Shown here: piece by piece, positions 1-9,810 of the stretch
How positions within the stretch are numbered: position 1 is the stretch's first letter
Layout: each line of letters opens with the position of its first letter
Source: Erigeron canadensis
Lineage: Eukaryota > Streptophyta > Magnoliopsida > Asterales > Asteraceae
Assembly: GCF_010389155.1 (NCBI RefSeq)
Contig: NC_057769.1
Coordinates: forward strand, 8,060,735 to 8,124,734
Reading direction: 5' to 3'
DNA length: 64,000 bases
Position numbers and translations under genes: made by a program
Notes under the pieces: model-generated
What the model was told of the DNA's origin: nothing
Databases searched by the model: none
What the model saw: only the letters and a program-made list of their open reading frames with translations

Positions 1-952
1 AATCAGTAAAACAAATATTATATATTAAGTTATGTGACTTGTAACTTAATAATATATGAAAAAAAATCAGTTGTGAATATTTTGAATGTAGCCATATGTG
101 TATTTCATCAAATACGGGTTACAATGGACGGTTCTTGACCATGTCCATAATTGTAACTTGTTCATATTTATATGTTGTGTAGATTCTAGCGACCTTGTTG
201 GATTTGCATAACTACTTGCTTGTTGAGGTGAGTTTCGTGGCCCCTTTTTATATTATTTCTTTGGGGGAAAATGATGCTCAAAATATTTTTATTTCTTTAC
301 TAGCTGTGCCAAAACTAGTTTGTTTTATTGGACATATACGTGTACTTATGAAATGTGTATGTTAGCTTGCTTGTATTGATTTCTTTGATGCAATAGATGT
401 CTTTTGATATCTATTGAAGACTATTGGAAAACTATCGACCAACTTTATACTCCAGCTGGTAGTTGTTGGTATTTAAAGCATGATTGAGTTGTTGGCATGG
501 GTGATGAGGATTTTGTTGTTGGATAACTATGATGGCATTGATCATTATTTAGTATGCTACTACATGTTTATATTTACGCTATTGTCCAAAACTTGATATA
601 TCATGCACAGCAAACTCATTTGTATTCCTTTAAACCTACGAACTCACCAACATTATGTTGACATTTTCGAGCATTCATTTTCAGGTAATAACAATGTTTA
701 AGAAGATTGAGCTTATGGACTTTAGGAAGACCAATAAAGAGATCCTTCATGGACTCCTAGATTGCATGTGAAACATTGAACGCTATTTGCAATTATTACT
801 TCTTTGCTATTTGAGGCGTGTTGCCTAGATTTTCGTTTATGGAATTTACATTTATTTGAATTTCATTTAGTATGACTCTATTATAAAGTCCATGTGCCAT
901 TGCTATATCTTTTAGTCATATCCTACGATTCCGTCTAAGGTGGGGTGTGACA
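1..952 (+). repeat. 5' LTR, 3' part only
   Basis: Direct repeat of 8595-9545. It ends in the same terminus (gtgtgaca) followed three bases later by the primer-binding site. The start lies outside the window. GTGAGT-like splice-donor sequences occur inside it (for example near 226-232). Confidence 0.95.
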
Positions 953-955
953 GAT

Positions 956-968
956 TGGTATCAAAGCC
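956..968 (+). other. Primer-binding site, initiator Met tRNA type
   Basis: tggtatcaaagcc lies three bases after the LTR end. It matches the complement of the 3' end of plant initiator Met tRNA (TGGTATCAGAGCC, from memory) with one mismatch. This is where minus-strand DNA synthesis would be primed. Confidence 0.85.
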
Positions 969-1200
969 GTGGTTATAGAGAATTAGGTGGTTTGGCCTAG
1001 ACTATAACCTAAGTACCCTCATATAGTGTACATTATAGGAACTATTTGTGCATCGTATATGTGTGAATACTTTCATTAGATAGCACTAGTTATGTGAGCC
1101 TTATATTTGCATTTAATTGTTAATTATGATGAAGCCTTATGTGCTTAGATTAGTGCAAAGTTTCAGCCTGTAATTTTAACGTAGCTAGTTTTACTTAGTC

Positions 1201-1626
1201 ATGGCACGTACAAAGAAAACAGCCCGTAAGAGTTCCGCATGGAGGGACATAATCATCCGTCGACAACTTAAAAGGGACGCCGCAGCTAACAAGGAAACCC
1301 CCGCTCAAGAACCATCTCAGAAGCCTAGAGTTTCCTCTGAAAGCGAACCGTCAGAAGATCCTAACTACTACTCCAAGACAGTTATAATCATCGATTCTGA
1401 CAGCGAGCCGGAGGAAGAACCGGACTATGATTCTAAGGCAGACCCCGAAAGCGTTCATAAGGGAAAGACAATGAAGGCTACGATAAAGGACAACAGAAGC
1501 TATAGTCCTACTAGCTCAGTAAGCTCTCAAGAGAGCCGGATCGGACCAGCACGACAACAAGCTCCTTATCCTCCCACCATTTCCTCCAACTCCCCTTATG
1601 ACGCCACTTGCACGTGGGAGGGCTAG
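1201..1626 (+). CDS. Leader ORF of the retrotransposon: histone H3 tail-like N-terminus plus SUMO-interacting motif
   Basis: A 141-codon ORF lies between primer-binding site and gag, in a different frame from gag-pol. The start has a good context (G at -3, G at +4). The protein begins MARTKKTARKSS; histone H3 begins MARTKQTARKST. After removal of Met the equivalents of R2, T3, K4, T6, R8, K9 and S10 are present; Q5 is K. A weaker resemblance may go on (RRQL against RKQL near residue 20, then AA and PA), but there is no histone fold. Residues 61-69 (VIIIDSDSE) followed by EEE form a typical SUMO-interacting motif in an acidic stretch, and the remainder is Ser/Pro-rich and probably disordered. 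The function is unknown. Possibilities are a decoy or ligand for H3-tail readers and writers, a partner of the element's own integrase tail, or a non-translated relic. I know of no named family for it. Confidence 0.7.
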   Translation: MARTKKTARKSSAWRDIIIRRQLKRDAAANKETPAQEPSQKPRVSSESEPSEDPNYYSKTVIIIDSDSEPEEEPDYDSKADPESVHKGKTMKATIKDNRSYSPTSSVSSQESRIGPARQQAPYPPTISSNSPYDATCTWEG

Positions 1627-2083: not shown

Positions 2084-5000
2084 ATGAATAGAGGGGGAAG
2101 AAATGGAGGACGTGGAGGTAGAGGTGGTGGTCGTGGTGGAAATAATGGGGTTAATGATGGAGAAGGTGATGGTGGCAATCCGGATATTGCAAACATGATC
2201 ACTCAGCAAATAGCTGCCGCTATTCCTACTATTGTTACTCAAGTGACCGCTGCTGTTCTTAATGCAAACAACAATAACCCTAATAATAATAACAATAATG
2301 AGAATAACAATAACAACAATGAGAACAACACTAACAATAATGAGAACAATAATAACAATAATGAAAATAACAATGATGGTAATCAGAATAACAACATCAT
2401 TGGAGGCAATAATAATGGATGCACCTATAGGGAGTTTCAATATTGTAAACCACCAGATTTTGATGGCAAGGGAGGAGCATTGGCAGCCACTAGATGGATA
2501 GAGAAAATGGAAGCTGTCATGGATATTAGCAACTGTGCAGAGAATCAAAAGGTGAAGTATGCCGCAGCTTCACTGACTAATAAAGCATTGACATGGTGGA
2601 ACACTGAGATACAAGCTAGGGGTAGAGTAGCAGCTGTGGGGATGACATGGGACGAGTTTAAGGAATTACTACTGGAAGAATTCTGTCCGAAAAATGAAAT
2701 GCAAAAGTTGGAAAATGAATTTTGGAATCATTCAATGGTAGGAGCCAAACATGCCGCTTACACTGATCGGTTTTATGAGCTTGCCAAACTAGTACCTCAC
2801 CTTGTTAGACCTGAATCAAATAGGATCCAGAGATACATCTATGGTCTTGTTCCCCAAATTCGTGGGCTTGTGTCAGCAACTGAGCCAACCACGATTCAAA
2901 GTGCTATTCAGAAAGCAGGATCTTTAACGGATGAAATGGTGAGAAATGGGTCATTGTCTAAGGTTAATGAGAAAAGGAAGGATGGTACTGAGACAAGTAG
3001 GTCAAAGAATACTGATGGAAATAACAAGAAGGCAAAAATGGCAACAGGGTTGATGGCAACGGATGCGACTAAGATCGGATATACGGGTTCTGCTCCAAAG
3101 TGTACAAAATGTCAATTCCATCATTTCCAAAATTCACCTTGCCGTTTGTGTACAAACTGCAACCGATTTGGACACCTTGCTAGAGACTGTCGAGTGGGAG
3201 TCAAGCAGGTGGCTCCGGTGAATGCTGTTAACCCGATAAATAACCGTGGAACGTGCTATGAGTGCGGTAGTCATAACCATTACCGCAACACGTGTCCAAA
3301 TTTGAACCGAGCATGGGGTCAGAGGGGTAATAATCCAAATCAAGTACTAGCTATTGGTGGAACTCAGAATCAAGGAAATAATCAGGGACAAAGAGCTAAC
3401 AATCAGAATCAAGTGGTAGCTAATGGAGGGAATCGGAATCAAGGGAATAATGCCAACCAAGCCCGTGGTAGAGCTTTTGTCATGGTAGCAAATGAAGCTC
3501 GTCAAGATCCAAATATTGTGACGGGTACGTTTTCCTTAAACAATCACCTTGCTACAGTATTATTCGACTCTGGTGCTGAGTACAGTTTTGTTTCTATTAA
3601 GTTTATGCCACTCCTAGATAGAGAACCCAAAATATTGAATACTTATTTCTTGGTTGAGGTAGCTAATGGAAAATTTGATAGAGTTGATAGAATCATTAAT
3701 GATTGTACCTTAGAAATAGAAGGTCATCTGTTCAGTGTTAACCTTCTGCCTTTCTCGTTAAGGAGTTTTGACGTAGTTATTGGTATGGATTGGCTATCGA
3801 AGCATAGAGCCGAGATAATTTGCTATGAGAAGGTGGTCCGTATACCGCTAGGAAATAGTGAAATGCTACTCATATATGGGGAGCGGGTGGAGGAAAATCA
3901 GAAGCACCTCATGGGCATTCTGGCTAACGAGAAGAAACTCGAAGATATTCCTATCGTACGGGATTTTCCACAAGTTTTTCCCGAAGATCTAACAGGATTA
4001 CCTCCTGTAAGACAAGTTGAATTCCGTATAGATCTTATTCCGGGAGCGACGCCAGTCGCCAAAGCTCCATACCGTTTAGCACCTACCGAAATGCAAGAAC
4101 TGTCTAATCAACTCCAAGAGCTCCAAGAAAAAGGCTTCATCAGACCTAGTCATTCGCCTTGGGGAGCACCAGTATTGTTTGTCAAGAAAAAAGATGGTTC
4201 GTTTCGTATGTGCATCGATTACCGGGAGTTGAACAAACTGACAGTTAAGAATCGTTACCCTCTTCCTAGAATCGACGACTTATTCGATCAACTTCAAGGT
4301 GCGAAGTTCTTCTCGAAAATAGACCTTCGGTCCGGATATCATCAACTCAGAGTTAATGAAGCAGATATTCCAAAAACAGCATTCAGGACTCGATATGGAC
4401 ATTTTGAGTTCTTAGTCATGCCTTTCGGTTTGACTAATGCACCCGCAGTTTTCATGGATTTGATGAACCGTGTATGCAAACCCTATCTCGATAAGTTTGT
4501 TATTGTATTCATTGATGACATTTTAATCTATTCGAAGTCTAAGGAAGAACATGAATCTCACTTGAAAATGATTCTTGAACTACTTTGGAAAGAGAGATTG
4601 TTTGCTAAGTTTTCGAAGTGTGACTTTTGGTTACAAGAAGTTCATTTCCTTGGGCATGTAGTGAATAGTGAAGGAATCCATGTTGACCCCAGTAAGATCG
4701 AAGCAGTAAAAGATTGGAAGACTCCTACGACGCCATCAGAGGTTCGTTCATTTCTAGGCTTGGCCGGGTATTATCGACGATTCATCGCTAACTTCTCGAA
4801 AATCGCTCAACCACTTACTCAGTTAACCCAAAAGGATAAGAAGTTTGATTGGGGAGATAAGCAAGAAAAGGCATTCCAAACACTGAAAGAAAATCTATGT
4901 AACGCTCCTATTCTTACCCTCCCCGATGGTCTGGACGATTTTGTAGTTTATTGTGATGCTTCAAATCAAGGCTTGGGATGTGTGCTAATGCAAAGGGGTA

Positions 5001-6823
5001 AAGTGATTGCTTATGCCTCTCGGCAACTCAAAATCCATGAGAAAAACTACACCACCCATGACTTGGAGCTTGGTGCAGTAGTTTTTGCACTCAAATGTTG
5101 GAGGCACTATCTCTATGGGACGAAAAGTGTGATCTACACCGATCACAAGAGTCTTCAACATATTTTCAATCAAAAGGAGTTGAATATGCGACAGAGGCGG
5201 TGGATTGAATTATTTAGTGACTATGATTGTGAGATTCGTTACCATCCGGGTAAGGCGAATGTTGTGGCTGACGCGTTAAGTAGGAAAGAAAGAATTAAGC
5301 CAAAGCGAGTACGAGCATTGATCATGACAATTCATTTGGATATAAAATCAATGATAAGTCGGGCTCAAGATGAAGCATTGCAGAATATCAATGTAGAAAA
5401 AGAAGGGTTACGTGACCTTGATCAGCAAATGGAGCGTAAAGAGGATGGAGTACTGTACTTTGTAGGACGAATATGGATTCCACTTGCAGGTGGATTAAGA
5501 ACAGTGATTTTGGACGAGGCACATAGTACGAGATACTCCGTACACCCGGGAGCTGATAAAATGTATCACGACCTTAAGGATTTGTATTGGTGGCCGGGAA
5601 TGAAAAGAGATATAGCCAGTTATGTCAGTGGATGCTTAACATGTCTAAAAGTCAAAGCTGAACATAATAAACCACCGGGTTTATTAGTGCAACCACAACT
5701 TCCCGAATGGAAATGGGAAAGAATAACCATGGATTTTATTACAAAGCTGCCAAGAACTAGTAGTGGGCATGACAAGATTTGGGTGATAGTAGATAGATTG
5801 ACAAAGTCTGCGCACTTTATAGCTATCCGTGAGAGCTACACAATGGAGCAGTTAGCAAGGATTTATATAAAGGAGATAGTGGCAAAGCATGGAATTCCGG
5901 TGTCTATTATATCTGATCGTGATAGTCATTTCACATCACGATTTTGGCAGTCATTGCAAAAGGCATTGGGAACACGCTTAGACCTAAGTACGGCTTACCA
6001 TCCTCAAACCGACGGTCAAAGTGAGCGTACTATTCAGACCTTGGAGGATATGCTTAGGGCATGTGTGATGGACTTTGGGGGAAGCTGGGATATTCATCTT
6101 CCTCTAGTTGAGTTCTCGTACAATAATAGTTATCATTCAAGTATTAAGTGTGCTCCATTTGAAGCTTTATATGGACGGAAATGTCGCTCACCTGTTGTTT
6201 GGGCTGAGGTTGGAGAAAGTCAGTTGATTGGTCCGGAGATTGTACAAGAGACAACAGATAGGATTTTTCAAATTAAAGAAAGATTGAAAGCAGCTAGAGA
6301 TCGCCAAAAGAGCTACGCCGACAAACGGCGAAGGCCTTTAGAATTCAATGTTGGTGATAAAGTGTTACTTAAAGTGTCGCCTTGGAAGGGCATGGTTCGA
6401 TTTGGAAAGAAAGGAAAGTTGGCACCAAGGTACGTTGGACCGTTTGAAATTGTTGAACGGATTGGTCCGGTAGCTTATCGTTTAAGACTACCTCAAGAAC
6501 TAAGTAGGATACATGATACATTCCACGTGTCAAATCTCAAGAAGTGTCTCGCGGATAGAAGTTTGCATGTACCGCTAGACGACATTAAGATTGATGACAA
6601 GTTACATTTTGTGGAAGAACCAGTTGAGATCATGGATCGAGAACTTAAGACATTAAAACGTAGTAAAATTCAAATTGTCAAGGTCCGGTGGAATTCAAAG
6701 CGAGGGCCAGAGTTTACTTGGGAGCGAGAGGATCAAATGAAAATCAAATATCCACATCTATTTGATGCTACGTCTTTCAACCGTAACTCCAACAGAATTT
6801 CGAGACGAAATTCTCTCAAGTAG
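2084..6823 (+). CDS. Intact Gag-Pol polyprotein of Ty3/gypsy chromovirus
   Basis: A single frame of 1579 residues without stop or frameshift. The N-terminus is Gly/Arg-rich (RGG type), then comes an Asn-rich tract (about residues 60-110) and a retrotransposon Gag domain (about 130-260, [12 protein letters not shown] to YELAKLVP). Zinc knuckles follow ([14 protein letters not shown] and [14 protein letters not shown], with an extra Cys/His cluster just before). The aspartic protease has DSGA in [12 protein letters not shown]. The reverse transcriptase has FIDD in [10 protein letters not shown]. RNase H is marked by [17 protein letters not shown] and DALSRK. The integrase has an HHCC zinc-binding part (about [11 protein letters not shown] to CLTC), then DDE positions in [17 protein letters not shown] and the downstream [17 protein letters not shown]-type module ([19 protein letters not shown]) and a chromodomain-like tail ([18 protein letters not shown]) end the protein. 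The asparagine repeats produce spurious isoleucine-rich ORFs on the other strand. Confidence 0.96.
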
Positions 6824-6830: not shown

Positions 6831-9545
6831 TGTGACATCTGTCACCAAAAATGGTAATTTATTATAGTCTCTAACTTACATTCCAAATTTTTTTGACTAG
6901 TCAATATGCCTATATAGTATAACAAGCATAGAAATGTGGTGATCATTTCCAATATGGGATTTCTATTACTTGAATTTCAATAGTTTAGGATTGAGATATT
7001 TGATCTTCCTAAACGTAGATGACTATAACTATCCCCGTAATTTCTAGACTTGTAATTGTTAGTCATATTTATTTCTAGACATTGATAAATTAGTATACGC
7101 TATTTAGTGGTGAACGAAATCAATAATTATAAAAGTAATATATAATTAGTATAAGTAGTAAGATGGTAATAGTAATAGTAAAATATCATATGTTTAGAAA
7201 AAAATTTTAGTCATATATATATTACGACAATTTAATGGTGAGCAAGGAATTTTAATTCCATTAGAATTCTTATGATACATTAAGTCTAATCATAAACTAA
7301 CTAAAACACTTATCTCCATATATATATATATATATATAATAAACTATCTATCCTAATTATAAACTATATCAAACACTTATCCCTACAATTATAAAATATA
7401 TGTAAAATTAATGATCAAAACAAAAATCTCAAAACACAACTTCTTTTTGCTTCTCTGCCGTCGACTAGAACTCATCACCAAAGCCAAAGTTTATGAACTT
7501 GATTTTCAAGGCATTCATCCTAGAGAATTTTTGGATTTTGGTGAGTCTAAATTGACTTTTTTTTTATGTTTTTAAAAGATCTTTTATATAACAATGTATG
7601 GTCAAAATTCTTATAGAATTATATTTTATTTTGTCAAGGTATTTAAGGAGTGATCATCAATTTTGGGGTAAATTACTTATCTTTTCTTTATATATATATA
7701 TATATAAATATATCATTATATTTGTTGATCTTTTATTATAAGTAACCTATTTGATGAATATATATTATGGCAAATTTATAATAATGAATGAAAGGGTTTT
7801 TTTTAAAGGTTAAATCAAAAGATTGAAGTATAAATCATATTAATGTTAAAAGTTTACGTATTTATTGTAGCATAATAATTAATGTAATTAGAGAAATTTA
7901 ATTATGAAGGCATGGAAATCATAATAACATATGTAAATAGGTGTTGGAAAGATTTGAAAGTTTATATATGAATATTAGTTGTAGTAGTCTTTAAAACAGT
8001 AAGTTTGGGTTATTTCAGAATCTTGACAGATTCAGTTTGTTAACTTTAAGAGGTCGTATCTTGGTCATGGAAGATGGTTAAGTCACGTTTTTGGTGTCTA
8101 AAATTAATTTCAGGAAGTCTACTTTCTGGTGGAAGTGGTTTCGTGTCAAAATATGAAGTTTAAGGTTGTGAAACGAATTTTATAACAAAACTGCGCAAAG
8201 CTGAGTTTTCCGAACAGATTTTGGTCGACTTCAAATAGTCATATCTTATTCGATTTTATGAACTGGACAATTATTTTTCTCCAGAAACTCTTTTGAGATG
8301 TTAAGATTGTACAGTAAAAAAATTGGATTTTTTTGAATCTTCGAAGGCCCTTAACTTTTATAAAACTTTTCTGTGTGCGAACAGTGATTTTTCTGACTAG
8401 TCTGTAATCATTGAATTTTTAAAAATAGTTAACGTGCCAAATAAATTTATGTAAAAATTCATGTAAGTATATAACACTCTAAGGTAACAGTAGTTAAGAT
8501 TTGGAATCTTGAATCATTCGTTTCATCCTAATAAAAAAATAGATAAAGTTACAAAAAAATTTCAGTTAATATGAACTTGTAGAATTTAATCTTAAATCAG
8601 TAAAACAAATATTATATATTAAGTTATGTGACTTGTAACTTAATAATATATGAAAAAAAATCAGTTGTGAATATTTTGAATGTAGCCATATGTGTATTTC
8701 ATCAAATACGGGTTACAATGGACGGTTCTTGACCATGTCCATAATTGTAACTTGTTCATATTTATATGTTGTGTAGATTCTAGCGACCTTGTTGGATTTG
8801 CATAACTACTTGCTTGTTGAGGTGAGTTTCGTGGCCCCTTTTTATATTATTTCTTTGGGGGAAAATGATGCTCAAAATTTTTATTTCTTTACTAGCTGTG
8901 CCAAAACTAGTTTGTTTTATTGGACATATACGTGTACTTATGAAATGTGTATGTTAGCTTGCTTGTATTGATTTCTTTGATGCAATAGATGTCTTTTGAT
9001 ATCTATTGAAGACTATTGGAAAACTATCGACCAACTTTATACTCCAGCTGGTAGTTGTTGGTATTTAAAGCATGATTGAGTTGTTGGCATGGGTGATGAG
9101 GATTTTGTTGTTGGATAACTATGATGGCATTGATCATTATTTAGTATGCTACTACATGTTTATATTTACGCTATTGTCCAAAACTTGATATATCATGCAC
9201 AGCAAACTCATTTGTATTCCTTTAAACCTACGAACTCACCAACATTATGTTGACATTTTCGAGCATTCATTTTCAGGTAATAACAATGTTTAAGAAGATT
9301 GAGCTTATGGACTTTAGGAAGACCAATAAAGAGATCCTTCATGGACTCCTAGATTGCATGTGAAACATTGAACGCTATTTGCAATTATTACTTCTTTGCT
9401 ATTTGAGGCGTGTTGCCTAGATTTTCCGTTTATGGAATTTACATTTATTTGAATTTCATTTAGTATGACTCTATTATAAAGTCCATGTGCCATTGCTATA
9501 TCTTTTAGTCATATCCTACGATTCCGTCTAAGGTGGGGTGTGACA
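6831..9545 (+). repeat. 3' LTR, complete, 2715 bp
   Basis: It begins tgtgacatct and ends ggtgtgaca (TG...CA). Its last 951 bases repeat the start of the window. It contains AT microsatellites near 7311-7340 and 7687-7706 and GTGAGT donor-like sites near 7540 and 8821. The length is large but usual for Tekay-type elements. The small ORF at 8789-8971 is not considered coding. Confidence 0.95.
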
Positions 9546-9810
9546 GTAGAATTGAAGGAAGATTGCATGAAAAGAATGAAGGGGAAGAAAATGAGAGTGA
9601 GTGGGAATTTGACTCAAAGAAATTGGGTGGCTGGCACATTGTGGGGATGCCACGACCCATCCCATTTTTTGTGGGTATTTTACCCGCTATCCGTTAAAGT
9701 TCCAACTAAATTAACCCAATATCCAAAAATAAAATACTAGGAACTTAATTTAATGTCAAAACTATAAAAAGGGTTAATTTCTTTTACCTTAAAATCTTTA
9801 GGGTGTTACA
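9546..9810 (-). repeat. Fragment of an older LTR (minus orientation) interrupted by the chromovirus
   Basis: Read on the minus strand it starts tgtaacaccctaaagatttt at 9810, a start typical of gypsy LTRs (TGTAACACCC), and runs up to the junction with the young element. A matching continuation would be expected left of the window. Nearby bases to about 9900 show no recognisable gene. The ORF at 9540-9740 crosses the junction and is not credible. Confidence 0.45.

Follow-up and report, generated by a model that had tools for sequence, protein, structure and literature searches.

An accessory leader ORF with a histone H3 tail-like start in a putative Tekay-type chromovirus of Erigeron canadensis

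The element and its leader ORF

The window, that is the whole 64,000-nucleotide stretch of Erigeron canadensis DNA analysed here, opens within a complete and young Ty3/gypsy chromovirus with long LTRs. The 3' part of its 5' LTR occupies positions 1..952 (+), with the LTR start lying upstream of the window at genome position C9:8058972, and the 3' LTR (2715 bp, TGTGACA...TGTGACA) extends over 6831..9545 (+). Both LTRs are 99.7% identical over 954 aligned columns (1-952 versus 8595-9546), and the element is flanked by a 5-bp target site duplication, GTAGA, at 9546..9550 (+), the second copy of which stands immediately before the 5' LTR. The primer-binding site TGGTATCAAAGCC, recognised by its sequence at 956..968 (+), is presumably of the tRNA-Met type. 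In five of the eight sister loci that were read, TGGTATCAGAGCC directly follows an LTR-end-like GGGGTGT[TG]ACA. The gag-pol polyprotein at 2084..6823 (+) carries Pfam matches to gag, zinc knuckles, protease, RT, RNase H, integrase and a Tf2-1-like SH3 domain, and the order gag-protease-RT-RNase H-integrase is that of a Tekay-type chromovirus (Ty3/gypsy). Its integrase C-terminus at 6626..6766 (+) is weakly chromodomain-like (Pfam Chromo, E = 0.044, below the cut-off); according to excerpts of PMC6317226 and PMC3350952, type II chromodomains lack the aromatic cage residues, hence weak Pfam matches are expected of them. From the layout, the long LTRs and the 5' accessory ORF (aORF), we infer that the element belongs to the Tekay type.

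Between the primer-binding site and gag lies the 5' accessory ORF (P0001) at 1201..1626 (+), which encodes 141 aa plus a stop and begins with MARTKKTARKSS. The first-pass annotation had placed a leader ORF here, and its coordinates proved exact. The protein opens with the H3-tail-like block MARTKKTARKS (codons 1-11; 1201..1233, +) and continues as a fast-evolving linker that is rich in S, P, D and E and carries in-frame indels (codons 12-93; 1234..1479, +), followed by a C-terminal segment (codons 94-141; 1480..1623, +). Inside the linker stands VIIIDSDSEPEEE (codons 61-73; 1381-1419, +), present in the young family, which we take to resemble a SUMO-interacting motif. The C-terminal segment can be aligned in L010-L012, L014, L017, L021, L022 and the main family and has no match in L009 and L013. 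Charge-hydropathy values class the tail and the acidic Ser/Pro-rich linker as disordered, and the C-terminal segment only just so. Directly 5' of the ATG, 15 aligned copies have a U-rich tract ending in TTAG, for which a splice acceptor for a separate RNA is a possible, speculative reading.

The ORF protein has no histone match in Pfam, and so no sign of the histone fold that defines H3. A Pfam BLM_N match (E = 8e-4, 19.1 bits against a cut-off of 27) was taken as compositional; it is absent from L012 and L013. A search of the whole protein against PDB sequences gave H3.Y, Cse4 and H3 (E 0.74-2.9) together with two carrier proteins (E 4.5-5.1), none of them significant. No relatives were found in the viral and bacterial collections; three plasmid records carry reverse transcriptases at 27-35% identity.

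The genome searched comprises 426,212,758 bases in 356 contigs. It holds 55 matches to the ORF protein, some of them fragments of the same locus; 25 matches cover residues 1-141 in full, all but three of them (22) being free of internal stops. The ORF lies 2.2-2.7 kb upstream of 15 of the 17 RT places that are 91-100% like the window's among the best 91 of about 4900 candidates, the two exceptions within that set being C4:4250151 and C3:7853417. A sense ORF between the 5' LTR and gag, which is the hallmark of a 5' aORF/ORF0, is thus found in most family copies listed. When the window was compared with nine divergent copies, 9/13 distinct indels in the ORF kept the frame versus 0/11 in the leader and 2/9 in the spacer before gag, or 2/20 for the flanking non-coding DNA pooled; four of the 13 ORF indels fall at one site and perhaps reflect one insertion of changing length, which makes the counts partly interdependent. 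The ORF has a G+C content of 0.50, compared with 0.41 for gag-pol, 0.34 for the leader and 0.32 for the spacer. Shuffling reached 145 open codons in 1/2000 trials for 954-2083 and in 6/2000 for the ORF segment alone. We regard the ORF as a gene that codes for protein, or did so until recently. Five ATGs lie between the LTR and the ORF start (window 1059-1208), so that translation of the ORF is not obvious, a point that counts against a mimic function of its product.

Likeness to the H3 tail

The claim of a near-exact H3 tail stands, as the first 12 residues match H3 (MARTKQTARKST) at 10 positions. Among the 1317 ATG starts of the window with 11 open codons behind them, the start at 1201 matches H3 at 9/11 residues after Met, and the remaining 1316 reach at most 4/11. 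Under a composition model, the probability is 1.8e-10 per start and the expectation 0.0016 occurrences per 426-Mb genome, a figure to be read as a floor, with H3 chosen post hoc and basic starts frequent among related gag-position ORFs. In the whole genome, the exact degenerate DNA pattern for MARTKxTARK occurs at 48 places (30 loci of the leader-ORF family and 18 H3-like gene starts) and its reversed control at none. The pattern with Gln at position 5, searched with two mismatches allowed, occurs at 52 places versus two for the control; 34 belong to the leader-ORF family and 18 are H3-type starts, of which C1:23767327 was classed from its 30 bases alone. These two DNA patterns revealed no further H3-tail families in the genome. 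When the most divergent copy, in its open stretch, served as the query, all 43 matches lay at places of the leader-ORF family and no other family emerged. We count the H3 match of the ORF start as a non-chance one, in favour of a mimic. The H3-tail sequence stands at the very terminus, as a tail mimic requires, and its exposure would follow from the N-terminal Met-Ala. Unusual H3-like starts also occur in the host, with Val at position 5 (L073), APKKQL (L057, L058), APRKSI (L072) and QLSTQ (L074).

Conservation of the tail among copies

Thirty-seven copies with an alignable start were compared in H3 numbering. They derive from 40 fetched loci, with L014 counted twice and with L015 and L023-L025 omitted, the matches of which do not include residue 1; L015 is devoid of the N-terminal half of the ORF. 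R2, T6 and K9 are unchanged in all 37 copies, A1, T3, K4 and S10 are kept in 36, and A7 and R8 in 33. Position 5 is Lys in 33/37 copies and the H3-like Gln in the other four (L012, L013, L014a and L014b), all from divergent subfamilies. In a leader tree for which two distant sister elements served as root, the L014 pair branches deepest. On the other branches of this tree, K and Q at position 5 are mixed, which implies parallel change, reversal or recombination at this position and counts against a mimic. Gln5 is likely the older state, short of proof. L013 and L014 each hold two inverted leader-ORF copies or pieces a short distance apart, in divergent orientation in L013 and in convergent orientation in L014, an arrangement that could be a source of double-stranded RNA.

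Codons 1-11 of ten divergent copies are 79-100% identical to the window copy and the next 11 codons 45-79%, with conservation falling past codon 11. Related subfamilies keep the tail though the matched stretches are otherwise 37-66% identical to the window ORF. The first-pass annotation had staked its reading on related elements conserving the first 12 residues and carrying no stops. For the most part this held, as with the stop-free share of the full-span matches given above; it failed in three copies with a 7-nt deletion inside the motif, and in that many divergent copies have stops. The deletion is common to L023, L024 and L025, in which codons 9-11 (R8-K9-S10) are lost and MARTKKTA is followed by a shifted frame, so that K9 is kept in 37/40 once these copies are counted. 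Either this lineage spread or it was duplicated without the full motif, which counts against a mimic. The three loci have gag pieces 93-100% like the window and are left with a short peptide; two of them lie about 12.5 kb apart, and local duplicates are an alternative to a spreading lineage.

Rate of change and selection

In a set of 21 recent copies, nonsynonymous and synonymous changes number 16 and 2 for the ORF versus 16 and 22 for gag (Fisher p = 0.0012); with two more copies added, the ratios become 28:3 and 49:42 (p = 0.0002). Set against a neutral expectation of about 28% synonymous changes, these ratios mean that the ORF as a whole bears no signal of purifying selection, whereas gag is under purifying selection. 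A comparison of dN/dS across copies, proposed in the first-pass annotation, was informative for the whole ORF and not for the tail. In seven divergent loci scored for both genes, dN/dS is 0.57-0.83 for the ORF (window versus divergent copies; up to 1.07 in other pairs) and 0.27-0.39 for gag, values that in old copies include decay after insertion. Codons 1-11 offer only about 7 synonymous sites, so dN/dS is not measurable there. With gag as the comparison gene, the ORF evolves faster by both dN/dS and the 16:2 versus 16:22 counts, as is characteristic of 5' aORF/ORF0 genes.

Eight ORF changes are common to several of the 21 recent copies, and all eight lie outside codons 1-11; with an expectation of about 0.6 for these codons, this proves nothing alone. 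Changes found in a single recent copy are not depleted in these codons (2/10), which counts against a mimic. Fast change of the ORF beside a constrained gag resembles that of proteins in conflict with the host and is counted as for a mimic, and weak constraint would also fit the ORF dN/dS and the unconstrained recent changes.

Origin of the H3 likeness

The H3 likeness of the ORF protein stops at residue 11-12. That the element took up the first exon from an H3 gene of its host and retained the tail alone is very improbable. Such a capture would account for the near identity of the peptide to H3 1-10 in the Gln subfamilies; additionally, the downstream matches RxQL, AA, PA and KP are equalled by 38/5000 shuffles of residues 13-45, and in several host H3-like genes the H3 likeness itself ends, intron-like, after about residue 23. 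However, shuffling residues 13-141 equals the downstream score in 445/5000 cases and relatives mostly do not have the downstream matches, so that homology past residue ~11, as first claimed, did not hold up: in place of RRQL (H3 17-20), most relatives have RRQR or unrelated residues. The DNA speaks against capture as well. The element encodes Ser10 by AGT, and 18/18 host H3-like genes do so by TCN, a difference that requires two steps. Measured from the Gln form of the element, the nearest H3-like gene differs at 6/33 nt, and 14,976/20,000 random synonymous versions are equally close; in a 30-nt comparison, the nearest gene differs at 3 nt and 6,484/20,000 versions are equally close. The earlier impression that the DNA too looks H3-like, and with it a captured piece of H3 DNA, therefore finds no support, the likeness being no greater than synonymous expectation.

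In four of the eight sister loci (80-84% RT identity; L076, L077, L079, L080), no sense ORF of at least 60 codons lies between the primer-binding site and gag; leader ORFs are present and unrelated in L082, and the other three have no visible primer-binding site and were not judged. The leader ORF was probably gained in this lineage specifically. On balance, the comparison of peptide and codons favours an H3 likeness that arose by convergence in the element's own leader ORF, and not by capture. The sister chromovirus L082 (C6:14831460-14833560) has a different leader ORF at L082:942-1415 (+), MANPHQNIPDVFIVPDLNLPLN..., in which DLNLPLN looks, by our assumption, like an EAR co-repressor motif. 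Chromatin-related short motifs may thus occur more than once among the leader ORFs of these elements.

Proposed function and competing explanations

It is generally the case that Met before Ala is removed, and N-terminal acetylation could block the exposed Ala1. Partners of the free H3 tail include SUVH4/KYP (K9), LDL-type demethylases (K4), Haspin (T3), Aurora (S10) and PHD fingers, and these would be the obvious partners of the ORF protein as well. Against this background, we consider the ORF as a Tekay-like chromovirus 5' aORF/ORF0 with an N-terminal mimic of H3 1-10 that would engage H3 writers, erasers or readers, the likeliest of the readings, to which we give somewhat less than an even chance. 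The product would be a small, probably disordered protein with an N-terminus imitating H3 Ala1-Arg-Thr-Lys4-[Gln/Lys]-Thr-Ala-Arg-Lys9-Ser10. Removal of Met would expose Ala1, as it does in H3, and the exposed tail might then be met by binders of free H3 N-termini or of the ARKS context. The protein could serve as a decoy substrate or competitor of silencing enzymes, namely SUVH4/KYP-type H3K9 methyltransferases or LDL/LSD1-type K4 demethylases; alternatively, it could act as a tether to H3 readers. In either case, the outcome would be weaker silencing of the element. As a second option, the tail might be bound by the element's own chromodomain, if that is of type II, a type with no established partner (excerpts of PMC6317226 and PMC3350952). 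We prefer to read the protein as a putative decoy or substrate-like inhibitor of silencing. The more specific proposal, a convergent N-terminal H3-tail decoy that disables or diverts host H3K9/H3K4 silencing and may also be the missing ligand of the element's own chromodomain, if of type II, is tentative and leans towards the unlikely.

Two other explanations dispense with mimicry. The tail may be a mere basic N-terminus for nuclear localisation or nucleic-acid binding, a feature frequent among chromovirus proteins, its H3 spelling accidental and the fast-drifting 5' aORF serving another role. Basic starts are indeed found in sister gag-position ORFs (MVRTRAN, MERPRRAG, MVRPKRVV, MPPKRGRK, MAPKRNPP), and excerpts of PMC11728184 describe the Tekay 5' aORF proteins of sunflower and grasses as nuclear by prediction. 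However, a role of charge alone would permit K/R exchange, and K9 and R2 are invariant in the 37 copies, with K4 changed once (to Thr); furthermore, the ten-residue match takes in the non-basic T3, T6 and S10. We regard this explanation as rather doubtful. It is improbable that the region from about -24 to +33 owes its conservation to an RNA element, be it a translation start, a splice acceptor or a packaging signal, for which the peptide is irrelevant. By sliding identity in 10 copies, the most conserved 33-nt stretch near the ORF start does lie at 1176..1208 (+), and the ATG context is strong, with G at -3 and G at +4. In copies other than L014, most leader windows show 80-98% identity, and in L014 the range is 63-88%. 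Codons 1-11 rank 33rd of 399 33-nt windows in the 10 copies, 65th of 399 in the four Gln copies and 130th of 400 in the L014 pair. The non-coding leader is conserved as strongly as codons 1-11, which counts against selection on the tail. On the other hand, the conserved block stops at codon 11, the same place as the H3 likeness, an H3 spelling is not expected of an RNA element, and Gln5 in the divergent subfamilies raises the H3 likeness of the peptide instead of lowering it.

Significance and comparison with known systems

Extra ORFs are frequent in plant LTR retrotransposons, and the match to H3 1-10 gives a directly testable question of function. If H3 writers and readers act on the tail, a transposable element would be practising histone mimicry, its N-terminus open to presentation in the manner of the H3 tail, within a host that writes silencing on H3K9. 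What is known here is the kind of gene, a 5' aORF; what is new is its H3-tail-like start. The protein falls outside the histones, and mimicry is a proposed role. The first-pass annotation was aware of no earlier description of such a protein from a plant retrotransposon, and none was found among the matches listed from the open-licence literature.

Histone mimics are known from viruses, such as influenza NS1 and SARS-CoV-2 ORF8. These likewise carry a short H3-like motif in a parasite protein; however, their motifs are internal or C-terminal and shorter, whereas here ten residues stand at the true N-terminus of a plant retrotransposon protein. SNAG domains (SNAIL/GFI1/INSM1), which bind LSD1, also imitate the H3 tail at the N-terminus, for a K4 demethylase. 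Their carriers are host transcription factors with little H3 identity, whereas the ORF start is near-exact. VANDAL DNA transposons encode the anti-silencing protein VANC, and we know of no histone mimicry by such proteins. They act on DNA in a sequence-specific manner, unlike the H3-tail mimicry proposed here. Like the leader ORF product, they are accessory proteins of transposable elements, with the anti-silencing function described in excerpts of PMC11728184 and, for the leader ORF, proposed.

According to excerpts of PMC4606454, the geminivirus protein TrAP binds and inhibits SUVH4/KYP, so plant parasites do attack the H3K9 silencing step, and a precedent exists. TrAP is likewise a plant parasite protein, with action against H3K9me2 silencing of the kind proposed here; it is a protein of a DNA virus and not of a retrotransposon, and those excerpts mention no likeness to the H3 tail (PMC4606454).

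Among the closest systems are the 5' aORFs or ORF0s of Tekay/Retrosat2-type elements, which excerpts of PMC11728184 and PMC3485330 describe as fast-evolving and without established function; extra ORFs of retrotransposons in general are treated in excerpts of PMC7264820 and PMC12786077. The main survey, in the part that follows its SIRE example, asks whether extra ORFs function at all (PMC6317226), and the 250-codon minimum given there means that a 141-codon ORF would be missed. The 5' aORFs of Tekay (Del) elements (sunflower Tekay group 2, rice Retrosat2/RIRE3/RIRE8, maize and sorghum) occupy the same sense position between the 5' LTR and gag-pol, and in these chromoviruses, as here, the LTRs are often long and the aORFs change rapidly (excerpts of PMC11728184 and PMC3485330). 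The word 'histone' occurs 0 times in the main texts of these two papers. The sunflower Tekay aORF protein is largely disordered, as is probable for the protein here, and differs in length, with 402 aa versus 141 aa here (excerpts of PMC11728184).
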